DNA of 22,360 bases from a virus: positions 1 to 22,360 of IMG/VR virus record IMGVR_UViG_3300031578_000375; one strand, 5' to 3'. Position 1 is the stretch's first letter. Each line of letters opens with the position of its first letter. The notes below the pieces were generated by a model. That model saw nothing but the letters and a program-made list of their open reading frames with translations. It had not been told where the DNA came from and made no database searches. Shown piece after piece: positions 1 through 5,044 of this stretch. Both the position numbers and the translations under genes were made by a program.

Positions 1-57
1 AATATGAATAGTGCAGCACTCGATAGACCTTACCAAGCTGAGAGAACAGCCGAATAA
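1..57 (+). CDS. 3' end of a possible upstream gene (partial)
   Basis: Of the three forward frames at the left edge, only the first is open. It reads 18 codons, ending in the residues DRPYQAERTAE, before a TAA at 55-57. The other two frames hit stops within the first ten bases. The composition looks protein-like, but the piece is too short to identify. It could equally be a chance opening. Confidence 0.3.
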   Translation, partial: NMNSAALDRPYQAERTAE

Positions 58-116
58 ACACCGAGGGCAAACGGTAGGGGCATTTGCCAAGCTGTATTAT
101 TTAGAAATGATATAAA

Positions 117-134
117 TTACAACAAATGTTGTAA
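117..134. promoter_or_regulatory. Operator-like palindrome, copy 1
   Basis: TTACAAC, four bases (AAAT), then GTTGTAA form a perfect 7-4-7 palindrome. A second copy begins exactly 42 bases downstream, about four helical turns, so a protein bound to both would sit on the same face of the DNA. No matching repressor gene is visible nearby. Function is inferred from symmetry and spacing. Confidence 0.5.
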
Positions 135-149
135 ATAATTGCTAAAATG

Positions 150-181
150 TTTGGATAATTACAACAATCGTTGTATCTTTA
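150..181 (+). promoter_or_regulatory. Bacteroidota-type promoter
   Basis: TTTG at 150-153, a 20-base spacer, then TATCTTTA at 174-181. This matches the Bacteroidota primary sigma consensus (TTTG, N19-21, TAnnTTTG) except for the last base. The first downstream start codon is at 213. The operator copy at 159-176 fills the spacer and the start of the -7 box, so a bound repressor would block polymerase. Box match and spacing are seen; activity is inferred. Confidence 0.6.
159..176. promoter_or_regulatory. Operator-like palindrome, copy 2, inside the promoter
   Basis: TTACAAC, AATC, GTTGTAT: the same half-sites as the copy at 117-134, with one mismatch in the last position. It lies between the -33 box and the -7 box of the promoter at 150-181 and overlaps the first bases of the -7 box. 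This is the usual place for a repressor operator. Confidence 0.55.
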
Positions 182-212
182 CTTCATAATAATAACACAA
201 AAAATTATAACG

Positions 213-452
213 ATGGTACATGCAAAAAATGTAAAAGACAGCAGAGGAACATTTAAAATTGAAGTATCTCTTTGGATTGTAAAACAAAGCTGGGAAACCG
301 ATATTAATGGTAATAGCCACAGATATGATATTCATGTAGAATTTACTCCAAAAGGTAAAAGGAAACCACTGCACGGAAACCATATAGACATGATTAGTGA
401 AGAAGATTTACAAGCTTGTAGAGTTGAATTTTGGAAAAAACTACAACCGTAA
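213..452 (+). CDS. Small hypothetical protein, first gene of the + strand operon
   Basis: A 79-residue protein starting MVHAKNVKD and ending FWKKLQP. The frame is open upstream to a TTG at 171, but that TTG overlaps the operator and the -7 box. The ATG at 213, about 30 bases after the promoter and preceded by an A-rich stretch, is the likely start. No known domain is recognised; the sequence is polar and basic with alternating beta-like segments. Its TAA overlaps the ATG of the next gene by one base, so the two are probably co-translated. The position directly after a repressible promoter suggests an early accessory phage gene. Confidence 0.6.
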   Translation: MVHAKNVKDSRGTFKIEVSLWIVKQSWETDINGNSHRYDIHVEFTPKGKRKPLHGNHIDMISEEDLQACRVEFWKKLQP

Positions 453-613
453 TGGGAAATATAGATAAACTTATAAACTGGGGAGAACTTAGCCGAACAT
501 TGGCAGGTTCTCGCTCTGTTGTTACTAAAAATAGAATGCCTAAAAAGCACGAACCTAAAGTTAATGAATTACGTGAACTGCTCAAAAAATGGCTCGACTC
601 TTTGCGTCCTTAA
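452..613 (+). CDS. Small basic hypothetical protein (53 aa)
   Basis: Starts at the ATG that overlaps the previous stop codon (TAATG). The longer reading from a TTG at 431 would run inside the previous gene and is less likely. The protein is basic and helical, with a core reading INWGELSRTLAGSRSVV followed by KKHEPKVNELRELLKKWL. Similar short Bacteroidota phage and mobile-element proteins with a WxELSR...N/S-R...K-x-R-x-PKK pattern seem familiar, but no function is known to me. A small DNA-binding role is possible but not shown. Confidence 0.55.
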   Translation: MGNIDKLINWGELSRTLAGSRSVVTKNRMPKKHEPKVNELRELLKKWLDSLRP

Positions 614-638
614 ATGGGTGGTAACGTTTGACGGTAAA

Positions 639-665
639 CTCTCGTTGCCGTTTTAAATACGAGAG
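639..665. repeat. Small hairpin downstream of the 452-613 gene
   Basis: CTCTCG at 639-644 pairs with CGAGAG at 660-665 around a 15-base loop. A competing pairing of ACGG/CCGT lies just upstream. No T tract follows, so it is not a standard terminator. It occupies the place where the left border of the cassette array would be, but no RYYYAAC/GTTRRRY pair can be found in it. Confidence 0.3.
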
Positions 666-690
666 ATAAATTTTCAAAATAGTAGAAATT

Positions 691-906
691 ATGAATGAAA
701 TAATAAATATCGGAAATGCACAAGGCAATGGAGTTTTACCGTGTGTTATGCCCAGTTGCATTGATGAATGGTTGCCACTTATAGCAGATTATTACCATGC
801 AGAAAGCGAAATGCGTGGTAATGTGCAAATTACAACCAAAAGCGGAATAATAAACGGCAAAATATTTATAAGATGTTCAATAGTGCCAATTGGCAATTGG
901 GCCTAA
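691..906 (+). CDS. Hypothetical protein of the first array gene (71 aa)
   Basis: An ATG start and 71 residues. The middle reads as a short helical segment (CIDEWLPLIADYYHAESEMRG), followed by a beta-rich end with the strand-like segments VQITTKSGIINGKIFIRCSIV. I do not recognise the family. The notable feature is the end: the stop codon TAA (904-906) lies inside the 7-base box GCCTAAC that opens the attC-like site at 901-995. This is the arrangement seen in integron gene cassettes. No matching GTTAGGC box is found upstream, so the left border of this unit is not defined. Confidence 0.5.
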   Translation: MNEIINIGNAQGNGVLPCVMPSCIDEWLPLIADYYHAESEMRGNVQITTKSGIINGKIFIRCSIVPIGNWA

Positions 907-995
907 CGTTTTTAATAAGATTAGTAGTGCGACCACTACAGATTAATAGATGCGGAACGGCTGACACGCACTATTAATTTTATTTATTGTTAGCC
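901..995 (+). repeat. attC-like recombination site, copy 1
   Basis: A 95-base imperfect palindrome. The outer boxes are GCCTAAC (901-907, fits RYYYAAC) and GTTAGCC (989-995), complementary over the core CTAAC/GTTAG. After a 6-base spacer, an 18-base arm (914-931) pairs with 967-984 at 16 of 18 positions, the two exceptions being G-T wobbles. A 35-base apical region separates the arms. R box, spacer, L arm, loop, L arm, spacer, R box is the attC layout of integron cassettes. The left box contains the stop codon of the preceding gene. A plain terminator is unlikely because the stem is long and interrupted and no T tract follows. Confidence 0.6.
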
Positions 996-1376
996 ACTTT
1001 TATAGAGCGATGGATATATTAAGCGATAAAATAGTAAAGACACGCAAAAAGCATAATTGCAGTGCGTGCGGGAGGATATTTGATAAAGGAACTATGATGC
1101 GAACCCAAGTAAACACATACGATGGTATTGGAACATGGAGAGAATGCCCAACCTGTACGGAATTACTAAGTAAATACCGTTCGCATTTTGAAGACGACTA
1201 TGACCATATGTGTTATGGTGACTGTGTAAGTGAAGTATTGGAGCGAGGGCAAACACCCGAAGAGCTACTAAGTGCATTTGCTAATTGTGGCTAACGTATA
1301 GGCAATATGAAGCGGTTGCCTGAATGTCGCTTCAAAATTACTAAACAGCTTAATAGCAACTGATTTATATTGCATG
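990..1376 (+). mobile_element. Candidate integron-like gene cassette 1 (387 bp)
   Basis: In integrons the crossover falls between G and TTRRRY of the right-hand box. Applied here, the unit runs from TTAGCC (990) to the G at 1376. Its own 3' box, GGCTAAC (1289-1295), is the exact reverse complement of its 5' box, GTTAGCC (989-995), over all 7 bases, although the boxes are about 290 bp apart. That is the expected signature of an excisable cassette, since the two boxes pair in the circular form. It carries one gene (1010-1294). No integrase is in the window, so mobility is inferred. Confidence 0.55.
1010..1294 (+). CDS. Small zinc-binding protein carried by cassette 1
   Basis: A 94-residue protein with two CxxC pairs, Cys17/Cys20 (in HNCSACGRIF) and Cys46/Cys49 (in ECPTC), that probably bind one zinc. 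An acidic helical tail follows. Phage genomes often carry similar small proteins (K-T-R-K-x-H-x-C-x-x-C, later G-T-x-M-x-x-Q-V). I know no proven function. It starts 14 bases after the right box of the attC-like site, and its TAA (1292-1294) lies in the next box GGCTAAC. A sampled stretch (1081-1140) is 40% GC against 27% at 2161-2220, a hint of separate origin. Confidence 0.65.
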   Translation: MDILSDKIVKTRKKHNCSACGRIFDKGTMMRTQVNTYDGIGTWRECPTCTELLSKYRSHFEDDYDHMCYGDCVSEVLERGQTPEELLSAFANCG

Positions 1377-1382
1377 TTAAGC
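1289..1382 (+). repeat. attC-like recombination site, copy 2
   Basis: A 94-base site of the same design as copy 1, with little primary sequence in common. The outer boxes are GGCTAAC (1289-1295) and GTTAAGC (1376-1382, an exact fit to GTTRRRY). A 6-base spacer leads to an 18-base arm (1302-1319) that pairs with 1356-1373 at 14 of 18 positions, with GCAATAT/ATATTGC perfect at the base. The apical part is 36 bases, against 35 in copy 1. Conserved structure with diverged sequence is typical of attC sites. An alternative inner hairpin (AGGCAA/TTGCCT at 1300-1305/1316-1321) could also form. Confidence 0.6.
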
Positions 1383-1396
1383 ACATTTATTTGATT

Positions 1397-1753
1397 ATGA
1401 AAAGAATTAAATTAATTTGGCTATATTTATTTCAATGGATGTTTCCTAAATTTATTAGGTTTAAAAATCACACAGTATATCGTATTCCAAACGATAAATA
1501 TACATTGATAATTGCAAATTGCAAAAAGGATAAATTACTAATTCCAAAAGAGTTTAAAGATATTGATTGCTTATTAATGCCTTATAATAATATTATTGGT
1601 AATCTTGATTTATCCGAATTAAGCTTTAATGAACTTAATATGAAAATATTAAAACATGGACATCATGAAGGAATTGGGAAAAATGGTACACTAAATTTTA
1701 TCTGTGATATTTGTGGTAAATCTCAAACAGATAACGAATGTAATTGTGCTTAA
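1397..1753 (+). CDS. Hypothetical protein of cassette 2 with a cysteine-rich C-terminus
   Basis: 118 residues from the ATG at 1397; a TTG at 1370 in the same frame lies inside the attC-like site and is rejected. The N-terminus is basic and aromatic (MKRIKLIWLYLFQWMFPKF), possibly membrane-associated or a poor signal anchor. The middle contains a short leucine-rich stretch (IIGNLDLSELSFNELNMKIL). The C-terminus has FICDICGKS followed by ECNCA, four cysteines that could bind zinc. No family is recognised. The stop codon TAA (1751-1753) is part of the box GCTTAAC. Confidence 0.55.
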   Translation: MKRIKLIWLYLFQWMFPKFIRFKNHTVYRIPNDKYTLIIANCKKDKLLIPKEFKDIDCLLMPYNNIIGNLDLSELSFNELNMKILKHGHHEGIGKNGTLNFICDICGKSQTDNECNCA

Positions 1754-1778
1754 CATCCAGCTAAATCTACCTTTTTAA
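1748..1778 (+). repeat. attC-like half-site at the right end of the array
   Basis: GCTTAAC (1748-1754) overlaps the stop codon, as in the two complete sites. The following 24 bases would be the spacer and first arm. No partner arm or right-hand box is found within the next 150 bases. It is most simply a truncated site at the array border. Its identity rests on the perfect match to the GTTAAGC box at the start of the same cassette. Confidence 0.4.
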
Positions 1779-1787
1779 AAAAAATAA

Positions 1788-1937
1788 ATAAAACGGTTCT
1801 TAATTGCCATTTTCAGGCGCAAGAAACACAAGGAAAACAATATAGATGAATTAAGCTTCAAAACTATTGAGAAATTGAGCAAATTAGCTGATACTTTTAG
1901 GGTTTTAATTAATTCAAAGGAAAATGGTAAAATATAA
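1788..1937 (+). pseudogene. Open frame without a normal start, overlapping the HNH gene
   Basis: Between the cassette array and the HNH gene one frame is open from 1788 to a TAA at 1935-1937. Its product looks protein-like and basic-helical, with the segment DELSFKTIEKLSKLADTFR near the end. There is no ATG, GTG or TTG in the frame. It overlaps the start of the HNH gene (1924) by 14 bases, as neighbouring phage genes often do. Either an ATT or ATA start is used, or the 5' end was removed when the cassette array was joined here. I favour a 5'-truncated gene. Confidence 0.35.
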
Positions 1938-2178
1938 GCAAGTATATATTGATTTTTGGGGATATACGATAGCAGATTTCATTCCATGCGCTTATTGTAG
2001 TTCAACATCAGTTGATTTCCATCATTTAGTATTCAGAAGCCATGGTGGCAAAGATGAACCAGACAATTTAATTGCTTTATGTAGAACTTGTCATGAGAAA
2101 GCGCATAATGACAAAACATTTAACGATTATTTAAAAGAATTAAATCAAGATAACATTAGAAAATACACCAATGACTGA
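1924..2178 (+). CDS. HNH endonuclease
   Basis: An 84-residue HNH nuclease. The zinc-holding cysteines are Cys22/Cys25 (PCAYC) and Cys53/Cys56 (LCRTC). The catalytic core is D31-F-H33-H34 in VDFHHLVFRS, Asn48 in EPDNLIAL and His57/His61 in CHEKAH. This fits the compact phage HNH type often found beside terminase genes, where such enzymes assist packaging and DNA cleavage in some phages (HK97 gp74 is the known example). It overlaps the next nuclease gene by 8 bases, so the two are translationally coupled. A free-standing homing nuclease is the other possibility; the operonic overlap argues against it. Confidence 0.85.
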   Translation: MVKYKQVYIDFWGYTIADFIPCAYCSSTSVDFHHLVFRSHGGKDEPDNLIALCRTCHEKAHNDKTFNDYLKELNQDNIRKYTND

Positions 2179-2563
2179 AAAACAACTACATAGGCAAATA
2201 TGTGATTATTTAAATTTGCAATATCCCAAAGTGTTATTTAATACCGATATGTCTGGATTAAAACTAACAATGGGGCAAGCAGTTCATGCAAAAAATTTAA
2301 GGTCGAATAATGGATTCCCTGATATTGTAATTTATGAATCTCATGAAAGTTGGCCTAATGGTGAATCATATAAATCTCATGCTTTATTTTTAGAAGTTAA
2401 AAAAGAAAGTCCTTATAAAAAGAATAGCATTGAATTAAAGAAAAATTCACATATCGAAATGCAGATAGAAACACACAAATTGCTGGAGGATAAGGGTTAT
2501 GAATGTGAGTTTGTATGGAGTTTCGATATGGCAAAGAAGATTATTGATGAATATTTACAGTAA
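2171..2563 (+). CDS. VRR-NUC domain nuclease
   Basis: 130 residues that match the VRR-NUC branch of the PD-(D/E)xK nucleases. The likely active-site residues are Asp51 in GFPDIVI and Glu75-Val-Lys77 in LFLEVKKE, followed by Gln98 in HIEMQIETHKLL. The C-terminus ends in the usual helix after a strand-rich YECEFVWSFD. Stand-alone VRR-NUC proteins are common in phage replication and packaging operons and are thought to cut branched or Holliday-type DNA. Here the gene overlaps the upstream HNH gene, suggesting that the two nucleases act in the same process. Confidence 0.8.
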   Translation: MTEKQLHRQICDYLNLQYPKVLFNTDMSGLKLTMGQAVHAKNLRSNNGFPDIVIYESHESWPNGESYKSHALFLEVKKESPYKKNSIELKKNSHIEMQIETHKLLEDKGYECEFVWSFDMAKKIIDEYLQ

Positions 2564-2592
2564 GAATTATTATTCACTTAACAATCAATATT

Positions 2593-2802
2593 ATGTGTAA
2601 ATGTAAATTATGCGGTACTGAAACTGCCAAAGGCAGACAAGTTTGTAAAGGGTGCCAAGCATTAAAGGCAACCGCTAAAAGTAAAGAATTCACGCCAAAA
2701 AATATAATGAGTGTGGCAAGTAATCATCTGGACAGAAACCCCCACTTATTACAAATAAGCTGGAAGTCGTTCTGGAAAAAGAATACAAAAAATATTGTTT
2801 AA
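2593..2802 (+). CDS. Small zinc-ribbon protein
   Basis: 69 residues beginning MCKCKLCGTE, then VCKGC: five cysteines (2, 4, 7, 18, 21), four of which can make a zinc knuckle of CxxC...CxxC type. The rest is basic and polar with no recognised domain. It stands 30 bases after the VRR-NUC gene in the same operon. A nucleic-acid-binding or transcription-adaptor role is possible, but nothing in the sequence proves it. Confidence 0.6.
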   Translation: MCKCKLCGTETAKGRQVCKGCQALKATAKSKEFTPKNIMSVASNHLDRNPHLLQISWKSFWKKNTKNIV

Positions 2803-2817
2803 CTTAAAACTTTACTG

Positions 2818-3078
2818 ATGAAAACAGGAATTAAAACAAAACAAAAAGTCGATTACAAAATAATGTCGGAAATAAAATGCTCAAAATGTAAGATGCCATT
2901 AAAACAAAATGTGGTAAGTAGAAATCAACATGCAAAACTATGCTATGTTTGTTTTAAGGTATCGCAAGGAAAGTTTAAATCAACTGAGCATAAAGTAATT
3001 AACGGTGAAAAAATTGAAGTAAAGAAAGTCGATTTTCTTAAGTTGCAAAAAGAAAATATTAACAAGTATAAATATTAA
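2818..3078 (+). CDS. Small zinc-ribbon protein
   Basis: 86 residues from ATG 2818. A second ATG at 2863 (residue 16), directly before the zinc ribbon, is an equally plausible start. Cys21/Cys24 (KCSKCK) and Cys42/Cys45 (LCYVC) form the metal site; the remainder is lysine-rich. It is separated from the preceding gene by 15 bases and followed by a stable hairpin that may end the transcript. The family is not recognised. The basic charge and zinc ribbon suit nucleic acid binding. Confidence 0.6.
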   Translation: MKTGIKTKQKVDYKIMSEIKCSKCKMPLKQNVVSRNQHAKLCYVCFKVSQGKFKSTEHKVINGEKIEVKKVDFLKLQKENINKYKY

Positions 3079-3091
3079 CCCCCTATTAATT

Positions 3092-3110
3092 GGAGCCGAA
3101 AGGCTCCTTT
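3092..3110 (+). terminator. GAAA-tetraloop hairpin, possible weak terminator
   Basis: GGAGCC (3092-3097), loop GAAA, GGCTCC (3102-3107), then TTT. The stem is perfect and capped by a stable GNRA loop. The T tract is short, so termination may be partial. It could instead protect or process the mRNA between the upstream nuclease/zinc genes and the terminase group. Confidence 0.55.
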
Positions 3111-3123
3111 AACTTTAAGAATT

Positions 3124-3333
3124 ATGACAGATAGAATAAAGGGATTTACAGTAACACTAGAAAAGGACATTCGAATTGACGATGTAGAAATAATTTTAAA
3201 TGCTGTGCGAATGATAAGAGGTATAGCGCATGTTGAACCAAGCATAAGTACATCTGAAGACCATATGATAAGTATGCGATTAAAATGGGAACTAAGAGAT
3301 AAATTCCATAACTTTATGAAAGATAATCTTTAA
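3124..3333 (+). CDS. Small conserved phage protein (69 aa)
   Basis: The order is beta strand, acidic segment, helix, strand, helix: FTVTLEKDIRIDD, then ILNAVRMIRGIAHVEP, then basic-amphipathic MRLKWELRDKFHNFMKDNL. Small phage proteins with the same plan (short strand, D-x-R-x-D-D, N-A-x-x-x-I-R-G-V-x-x-V-x-P, terminal R-x-E-L helix) occur in many tailed phages near the packaging or replication genes. I know of no assigned function. It is two bases from the next gene. Confidence 0.6.
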   Translation: MTDRIKGFTVTLEKDIRIDDVEIILNAVRMIRGIAHVEPSISTSEDHMISMRLKWELRDKFHNFMKDNL

Positions 3334-3335
3334 TT

Positions 3336-3626
3336 ATGAAATTATTAGTTTGTTTAGAATGTGGTGATATTTTTTCTTTAAGAGAAATAGTGCGTACCTG
3401 TATTTGCGGTGAATCATCTGGAAGCTATATTAATAGTTTAAGTGCTGAAATAAAAGGTAATTGCAAGGCTATAGGGTTTGCAAATGATTCTTTTAAAACT
3501 GCTTATAAGATGCAACAGATTGACGATAAAGCACAGGTAGGTACTGATAGTTGTTGCTTTGGTGTCGAATTTATAGCTTTTTTTATACCGGAAACGGCTA
3601 ATAGTGTTAATCGGGTTAATCAATGA
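3336..3626 (+). CDS. Zinc-ribbon protein coupled to the terminase
   Basis: 96 residues with an N-terminal treble-clef-like zinc site: Cys6/Cys9 (VCLECGDIF) and Cys22/Cys24 (TCICGESSG), then G-x-Y-x-x-x-L-x-A-E-I-x-G-N. Similar proteins with this C-x-x-C...C-x-C-G-x-S-x-G order occur in phages and mobile elements. The stop codon overlaps the terminase start (ATGA), so translation of the terminase is probably coupled. By position it could be a packaging accessory, although it does not look like a classical small terminase. Function unknown. Confidence 0.6.
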   Translation: MKLLVCLECGDIFSLREIVRTCICGESSGSYINSLSAEIKGNCKAIGFANDSFKTAYKMQQIDDKAQVGTDSCCFGVEFIAFFIPETANSVNRVNQ

Positions 3627-5044
3627 CTAGAAATATACTATTTGATCCATTTCCAAAACAACAAGAGTTTCTTGATGCTGCATTAAGTGGAAAATATAAT
3701 TTCGTACTATACGGTGGCGGCGTTAGGGGCGGTAAATCATATTCAGGGTTAGGATTGTTAATTCTACTTTGTAAGATATATCCAGGGAGTAGGTGGGCCG
3801 TCACAAGAAAGGACATGCCCACTATAGAAAAAACCATTTTCCCTATTTGTGATAAACTAATCCCCCAAAACTTTGTTAAATACAATAGGCGCGCAAGTAC
3901 AAAAAATCCACATTATGAATTTACAAATGATTCGATCCTCTTATTTTTCCCGGAAAATTATGTACAAGATAAAGAGCTAGAACGATTTAAAGGTCTAGAA
4001 GTCAACGGGTTCCTGGCCGAAGAGATGCCAGAACTTCAATACGCGACATTTATAAAATTACAAGAAAGGGCAGGCTCTTACATAATACCAATTAAAGAAC
4101 ATAGAAAAAACCCAATACAACCTAAACCATTAATTATAGGTACATGTAATCCATCGCCTGGGTGGTTAAAGGAGGTATTATATACACCTTGGAAGGAAGG
4201 TTTATTGCAAAATAACTGGACATTTATTCCAGCCATCGTATATGATAATCCTTATGTGTCTCAAGAATATATAGATATATTAGAAGGATTGCCATTATAT
4301 CATAAAATTATATACGTATCAGGATCGTGGAACTTTCAACTAAAAAAAGAAAATTGTTACTGGCGTGGGTTTGAGCTTGACAAGCATGTCAGTAATATCC
4401 CAATAAACCCATATTTGCCTATTCATGAATCAATTGATAGTAACGTATTGCCTTATTGCGCTATTTCATTATGGCAATTGGATGGAGGTCATGCAGTACA
4501 AGTTGACGAAATATCAGCCGAAGATCCAGACAATACAGCTCAAAAATCGGCCGGTTTAGTGAATAAATACTTAACCAAAATAGGGCATGAAGAAATAGTA
4601 ATTTTGCATGGAGATGCTTCAGCTAAAGCAAAAAATACAATTGACAATGAAAAGAGATCTTTTATTCAGCTTCACGAGGGCATTTTAAAAGAAGAATTTA
4701 TTGTAAGAAACCGGGTTTCAAATTCAAATCCATCAGTAACAATTAGGGGTGAATTTATCAATGCTGTTTATGAGGGATTAGTGCCAGGGTTGTCTATTTC
4801 AATCAACGAGAGTTGCAAAGATTCTATTAACGACTACATTACTGTTGTTCAAGACGAAAACGGGGGAATGCAAAAGAGAAGAATAACAAAAGACGGCCTA
4901 ACCTACGAGCCTTTTGGTCACTTTTCCGACACTAAAGCTTATTTTCTATGCGATGTGTGGAAAAAGGAATTTAACGAGTTTAAAAATGCCGGGAGTACGC
5001 ATGAGTATATCTTAAAGATTAATAAGTCTTATAATGTGATGTAA
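3623..5044 (+). CDS. terL: Terminase large subunit
   Basis: 473 residues, a normal length for the packaging ATPase-nuclease that drives DNA into the procapsid. The Walker A loop is GGGVRGGKSYS (residues 31-41). Walker B is GFLAEEM with Glu133/Glu134, and the coupling motif is GTCNP (173-177). The C-terminal RNase H-like nuclease has probable metal-binding acids Asp272, Asp331 (in LHGDAS) and Asp436 (in HFSDTKAY). This arrangement fits the Terminase_6 type. The start overlaps the upstream zinc-ribbon gene (ATGA). It is the last + strand gene of this block; the opposing gene ends 4 bases away. No portal gene follows, unlike in most phages. Confidence 0.93.
   Translation: MTRNILFDPFPKQQEFLDAALSGKYNFVLYGGGVRGGKSYSGLGLLILLCKIYPGSRWAVTRKDMPTIEKTIFPICDKLIPQNFVKYNRRASTKNPHYEFTNDSILLFFPENYVQDKELERFKGLEVNGFLAEEMPELQYATFIKLQERAGSYIIPIKEHRKNPIQPKPLIIGTCNPSPGWLKEVLYTPWKEGLLQNNWTFIPAIVYDNPYVSQEYIDILEGLPLYHKIIYVSGSWNFQLKKENCYWRGFELDKHVSNIPINPYLPIHESIDSNVLPYCAISLWQLDGGHAVQVDEISAEDPDNTAQKSAGLVNKYLTKIGHEEIVILHGDASAKAKNTIDNEKRSFIQLHEGILKEEFIVRNRVSNSNPSVTIRGEFINAVYEGLVPGLSISINESCKDSINDYITVVQDENGGMQKRRITKDGLTYEPFGHFSDTKAYFLCDVWKKEFNEFKNAGSTHEYILKINKSYNVM

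Follow-up and report, generated by a model that had tools for sequence, protein, structure and literature searches.

Arrays of integron-type recombination sites without an accompanying integrase are already known from phages. Clusters of at least two attC sites with no integrase nearby (CALINs) were described in virulent phages, namely, Polaribacter phage P12002L, TJE1, and PH101 (Qi et al. 2023, PMC9892861), and attC2 of P12002L is reported to recombine with attI1 through IntI1. The cargo consists of small genes and DNA methyltransferases, no Flavobacterium phages are named in the main text, and, as far as the text consulted shows, neither exchange between sister phages nor a reversed cassette polarity is described. 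A second relevant set consists of ten Flavobacterium "Moomin" phages from one isolation study (L112-L119, L108, and L111; Nilsson et al. 2020, PMC7077304), in a paper that mentions neither integrons nor cassettes. Chromosomal integrons of Vibrio and Shewanella have an integrase and palindromic sites with AAC/GTT cores, and the complementarity of attC sites extends over 9 to 11 nt (Bouvier 2009, PMC2727003). Complete integrons are reportedly rare in Bacteroidetes; the one described in Bacteroidetes proper, in Salinibacter ruber (PMC9024848), shares its phylum-level host group with the locus studied here.

We analyzed IMG/VR virus record IMGVR_UViG_3300031578_000375, of which a stretch of 22,360 bases (the window) was examined. 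Positions 619 to 1754 very probably constitute an array of three integron-kind cassettes without an integrase, i.e., a CALIN, in a tailed phage of Bacteroidota. The first-pass annotation of this DNA had proposed an integron-style cassette array in a phage, and this proposal is supported by the boxes that match across units, by covariance-model matches, and by exchange in related arrays. Its expectation that such an array would be unusual in a phage does not stand, since integrase-free attC-type sites in tailed phages have been published, including an IntI1-active site in a phage of Bacteroidota (PMC9892861). In contrast to those arrays, the one in the window lacks a methyltransferase, and no function is known for its three small genes. 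Relative to this literature, the new elements are a site anatomy proper to the family, the exchange of units between sister phages, a likely reversed unit, and start codons inside the sites.

The phage context is marked by a terminase large subunit gene (3623 to 5044, + strand; PHROGs E 1.6e-19), and the window also encodes an HNH endonuclease (1924 to 2178, + strand; Pfam HNH 2.7e-11) and long structural genes. From its relatives and its base composition, we infer that this is probably a tailed phage of Bacteroidota. The array lies in a region of small genes directly left of the packaging genes and right of the early genes, and the endonuclease, which is syntenic in the related contig L020, belongs to the phage backbone on its right. 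A search for relatives of the nuclease gene at 2171 obtained none. Next to the right end of the array, positions 1818 to 1922 (+ strand; translated similarity RKKHKENNIDELSFKTIEKLSKLA / KSKQHNKIDELHYKTIDRLSKIA) hold what remains of the C-terminal part of a small phage gene that is intact in L020 at 668 to 889. In the same place, L020, whose terminase is 74% identical to that of the window, harbors a different cassette-like gene bounded by matching boxes (GTTAGCGG / CCGCTAAC). This suggests that the insertion spot has been used repeatedly; the joint itself is unresolved, with 63 nt of unknown origin. Farther upstream, before the first gene, there is an inverted repeat rich in A and T (105 to 189, around TTACAACAAATGTTGTAA and TTACAACAATCGTTGTA), which has the look of an operator or origin-like element and is the third covariance-model match, at E 0.065.

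The sites in the window are imperfect palindromes of 94 to 133 nt with inverted AAC/GTT core boxes, and the three of them fit inside 764 bp. Site 1 (619 to 751, + strand) runs from TGGTAAC (619 to 625) through a 5-nt spacer and a stem, with a body of 119 nt, to GTTATGC (745 to 751). Site 2 (901 to 995, + strand) extends from GCCTAAC (901 to 907) to GTTAGCC (989 to 995) and site 3 (1289 to 1382, + strand) from GGCTAAC (1289 to 1295) to GTTAAGC (1376 to 1382). The right end of the array is a terminal half site, GCTTAAC (1748 to 1754, + strand), that lacks a second arm, giving seven boxes in all, at 619, 745, 901, 989, 1289, 1376, and 1748. The palindromes at 901 to 995 and 1289 to 1382, on which the first-pass annotation rested, are real: when the full length of the window was scanned blindly for TAAC, a stem, and GTTA, they ranked first and second, with stem scores of 16 and 13.5. 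Site 1, with a stem score of 13, had been overlooked. The symmetric 6-base spacers attributed to these palindromes were wrong, as 5 to 6 nt follow TAAC and 2 to 4 nt precede GTTA in the window.

The observation central to the cassette interpretation, that boxes are complementary across a gene rather than within a site, holds for all three units. The two matches put forward earlier, between 989 and 1289 and between 1376 and 1748, are longer than had been claimed, at 9 nt (GTTAGCCAC) and 10 nt (GTTAAGCACA, at 1376, with the terminal half site), and they are the only cross-gene box matches of at least 8 nt in a scan of the window. In the third cassette, the box of site 1 matches that at 901 in 9 of 10 positions (GTTATGCCCA / GTTAGGCCCA). 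The RYYYAAC/GTTRRRY consensus of integron boxes is met by GCCTAAC, GCTTAAC, and GTTAAGC, but TGGTAAC, GGCTAAC, GTTATGC, and GTTAGCC deviate from it, as do several genuine Vibrio boxes.

This arrangement is not readily produced by chance. When the window was shuffled with its dinucleotides preserved, one site with a stem score of at least 13 and a cross match of at least 9 appeared in 5 of 4588 sequences, and two chained cassettes appeared in none. Covariance models were trained on sites of other phages. Model R1, in which the loop had been trimmed, recovered no sites other than those with short loops, and R2 and R3 were therefore built, with the sites of the window left out. In the window, these recovered three sites and no other place at E < 0.01: site 1 by R3 (57.0 bits, E = 1.4e-9) and sites 2 and 3 by R2 (39.4 bits, E = 1.3e-8, and 35.4 bits, E = 1.7e-7). 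The next matches had E values of 0.065 and 0.12, and site 2 scored just 11.3 bits with R2 on the opposite strand. The covariance-model check of the window, in which E values went down to 1e-9, thus used models of Bacteroidota phage sites and not the standard attC models. The same model family matches the published P12002L array, in which R1 and R2 found four sites (E ~2e-6); the IntI1-active attC2 has not been matched to any one of them. Since the training sites were chosen by our own palindrome search, the pair counts lean toward structure. An Rfam scan of the window returned zero matches, a distant blastn search with window positions 1 to 5000 and a site of contig L003 against phage and plasmid records found nothing, and a genome collection scanned with the gene B protein and with the site pattern gave zero loci.

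The family to which these sites belong was grown from L003 and comprises at least 10 viral contigs plus isolated phages of Flavobacterium, Polaribacter, and Tenacibaculum. Matches of 9 to 10 nt across a unit were present in 27 of 38 unique neighboring site pairs versus ~1% of mismatched pairs, and the 19 pairs with a 10-nt match all have a G opposite an A at position 11. The test itself is valid because genuine integron arrays yield 9 to 12 nt (9, 10, 10, and 11 in Vibrio; 9, 9, 11, and 12 in Shewanella). The anatomy of the phage sites is nevertheless distinct from that of Vibrio sites, in which both spacers measure 3 nt and three bases are extrahelical, whereas the phage family has spacers of 5 and 1 to 4 nt and conserved G.T pairs. 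In nearly all sites of the family, 5 nt follow TAAC and 1 to 2 nt precede GTTA; single bulges are absent, the upstream arm is 2 to 4 nt longer, and the mismatches are one-sided. Most of the latter in the viral sites oppose a G of the 5′ arm to what reads as A once the 3′ arm is reverse complemented, which amounts to G.T wobbles on the coding strand. In an alignment of ten sites, both partners vary in 15 of 18 stem pairs, a level reached by 0 of 500 shuffles; one G.T pair never varies, and the covariation signal is lost if the partners are shifted by one column. Since it is on the coding strand that these wobbles account for most of the stem mismatches, that strand is most likely the one that folds. 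It gives the better fold in 23 of 26 viral sites, but in only 14 of 20 Flavobacterium sites. We infer that the coding strand of a site would fold into a hairpin when single stranded.

The three genes of the array lie on the + strand. Gene A (691 to 906; 71 aa, unknown) has its start codon at 691, within site 1, and its stop codon, TAA at 904 to 906, in the box of site 2; a Pfam search gave zero matches. If the polarity deduced below for the sister phages applies, the corresponding exchange unit A (625 to 906, + strand) consists of the body of site 1 and the gene. An otherwise different phage contig, L120, aligns with window positions 635 to 903, without gaps after the ATG and with its right break at the 901 box, and has thus kept the site body, the start codon, and a relative of gene A together, which to judge from this alignment agrees with a unit made of a site plus its downstream gene. 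Gene B (1010 to 1294) encodes a 94-aa zinc-ribbon-like protein (phrog_19515/7314/16244, PHROGs E 6e-10), with its stop codon, TAA at 1292 to 1294, in the box of site 3. Copies are found beside such sites in two other viral contigs, L002 (95% identity) and L003 (76%). In L003, both boxes of the gene B cassette are altered in concert, to GTTAGGCAAC / GTTGCCTAAC, and further cassettes follow, two of which are methyltransferase genes. Three other contigs with gene B homologues (L004 to L006), inspected by eye, have no such sites near them and present compact phage gene clusters, arguing that this cassette gene itself belongs to a phage gene family. Gene C (1397 to 1753; 118 aa, unknown), listed as an open reading frame, has C-terminal CxxC motifs and ends with TAA at 1751 to 1753, in the terminal half site; no clear family and no relative among viral contigs was found for it. 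We rejected the idea that genes invariably use the TAA in the box as their stop codon, as it is true for three of three window genes but for just 9 of 31 units tested.

Start codons inside sites are not restricted to the window (691 to 745). An ATG is present within many sites, among them L003:1915-2045 and those of L007, L008, L009, and L011 to L016, and its frame crosses the loop, the 3′ arm, and the box into the next gene. The resulting leader, e.g., MNIDTTNAPNTTETAIGFIPC, is found on different DNA methyltransferases, and phage homologues align only from about residue 24 to 27. In phage filifjonk9-1, 5 of ~14 sites contain the start codon annotated for the gene that follows.

Whole units are gained, lost, and relocated between the Moomin phages. 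Their arrays comprise 12 to 14 units in the same genomic place and resemble that of the window in site anatomy and in 10-nt boxes matched across units, differing by their length and by several methyltransferases. A 476-bp unit is present in some sister phages and absent from others, and a 439-bp unit is mid-array in lillamy9-6 and at the array end in lillamy9-7; in addition, 794 bp have been inserted in one case and 342 bp lost in another, and a block of 1181 bp also differs. The breaks are within the stop-side TAAC box, the sister phages sharing just 6 to 12 bases at the joints, and their ambiguity is limited to the shared strings ATAACG, TTATAAC, TAACGTT, ACATAACG, TAACGT, and CTTGCTTATAAC, of which TAAC is the common part. 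Exchange at precise breaks had been predicted to occur exactly after the G of the start-side GTTRRRY. Whole units do swap at the box core, but the breaks in the sister phages are at the stop-side TAAC. For the window itself, the evidence of exchange is limited to single comparisons with L002, L003, and L120, and current activity in its phage is an inference.

In these comparisons, one left gene is joined to differing sites, and the site body accompanies the right-hand gene, arguing that the moving unit is a site plus its downstream gene. On sequence comparison alone, the most likely arrangement in this family is thus the reverse of a classical cassette. Such a unit would end at a TAAC box, often overlapping the stop codon, and its two ends would stay complementary over 9 to 10 nt because they meet in the circular form. 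A reversed unit is compatible with the crossover taking place on the coding strand in its folded form; for a mutated attC, use of the top strand is reported to move the crossover to the R'' box (Bouvier 2009, PMC2727003). The classical alternative, in which a cassette consists of a gene and the site that follows it and is cut on the non-coding strand, behind the G of the start-side GTTA, is unlikely but keeps some support. Upstream of gene B, divergence between L002 and the window starts exactly at GTTAGCC, so that both polarities may occur; the R'' side has the longer arm, which is also true of canonical attC sites, and the sites after gene B in L003 and in the window are faintly similar. The classical polarity is opposed by the joining of the left gene to differing sites at TAAC in every clean sister-phage event, by the travel of site bodies with the right-hand gene, by the upstream site kept with unit A in L120, and by the better fold of the coding strand.

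How the units are moved is inferred. We propose that a tyrosine recombinase supplied in trans would cut beside TAAC/GTTA and join the sites, through which phages may gain, lose, and reorder accessory genes. A search for a tyrosine recombinase (PF00589) was negative in the window and in 14 similar viral records, these being fragments; on this evidence, the array does not qualify as a complete integron (intI plus attI). The earlier designation as a CALIN is borne out by three sites and no such recombinase in the 22-kb record, which is possibly a fragment. The simplest inference would be an integrase that is encoded by the host and acts in trans. Relatives of integron integrases occur in at least 313 viral contigs, and among the best 80 that were examined (L027 to L106), our array finder showed one array, and none with the present site family was seen.

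The features of classical attC sites are present only in part: the RRRY part of the box is not kept, there are no single extrahelical bases, and at E ≤ 1, R2 does not match any Vibrio, Shewanella, or class 1 material. It is about evenly balanced whether phages of Bacteroidota share a distinct, unrecognized system, with a site 5′ of each gene, a folded coding strand, a crossover at the stop-side TAAC, a site that often provides the start codon and an N-terminal leader, and an unknown host recombinase reshuffling units between phages.

The array could also be a relic that originated in a host integron, entered phages once, and now changes by homologous recombination only. The failure to find an integrase in the window and the 14 like records, the mere half site at the terminus, and the loss of the boxes of the L120 cassette would be in line with this. 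We find this doubtful, as the box pairs in the window are intact and units have moved precisely between sister phages of one isolation study with so little shared sequence at the joints. It is more improbable still that units that merely look like cassettes are moved by an enzyme from outside the integron family, be it a different tyrosine recombinase or an HUH enzyme. IntI was not found in the window or the 14 records, and the sites are unlike Vibrio attC in having spacers of 5 and 1 to 2 nt, G.T pairs that are conserved, and box letters that are free; nevertheless, the AAC/GTT core, the 9- to 10-nt complementarity of the boxes, and the stem-loop form are all attC-like, and the covariance-model family includes P12002L, of which an attC is reported to be recombined by IntI1. 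An interpretation of the palindromes as plain repeats between genes or as terminators, which their position and palindromic form might suggest, can be virtually ruled out, given that they have neither a T run nor a strong hairpin, that complementarity across genes would have no reason and never chains in shuffles, and that whole units are exchanged in sister phages.

The integron-kind cassette reading bears on phage biology mainly through the methyltransferases. Because sister phages gain, lose, and move genes, e.g., DNA methyltransferase genes, as whole units, the arrays look like a phage gene-swapping system. Phages that plate poorly on strain LMO6 are reported to be without one specific methyltransferase (PMC7077304). 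The two poor platers named there, lillamy9-1 and morran9-1, have no cassette block J-K-L; the block is present in snork, sniff, and filifjonk and absent from lillamy and morran, and its unit L holds a methyltransferase gene. We infer that this is the methyltransferase missing in the poor platers. If so, cassette content may set the plating efficiency of such a phage on its host. The reversed polarity, if true, would be a real exception to integron rules. The arrays would provide a concrete, site-specific route for virulent phages to trade small accessory genes, which is directly testable in the isolated Flavobacterium phages lillamy, snork, sniff, morran, and filifjonk, whose cassettes include a set of DNA methyltransferases.
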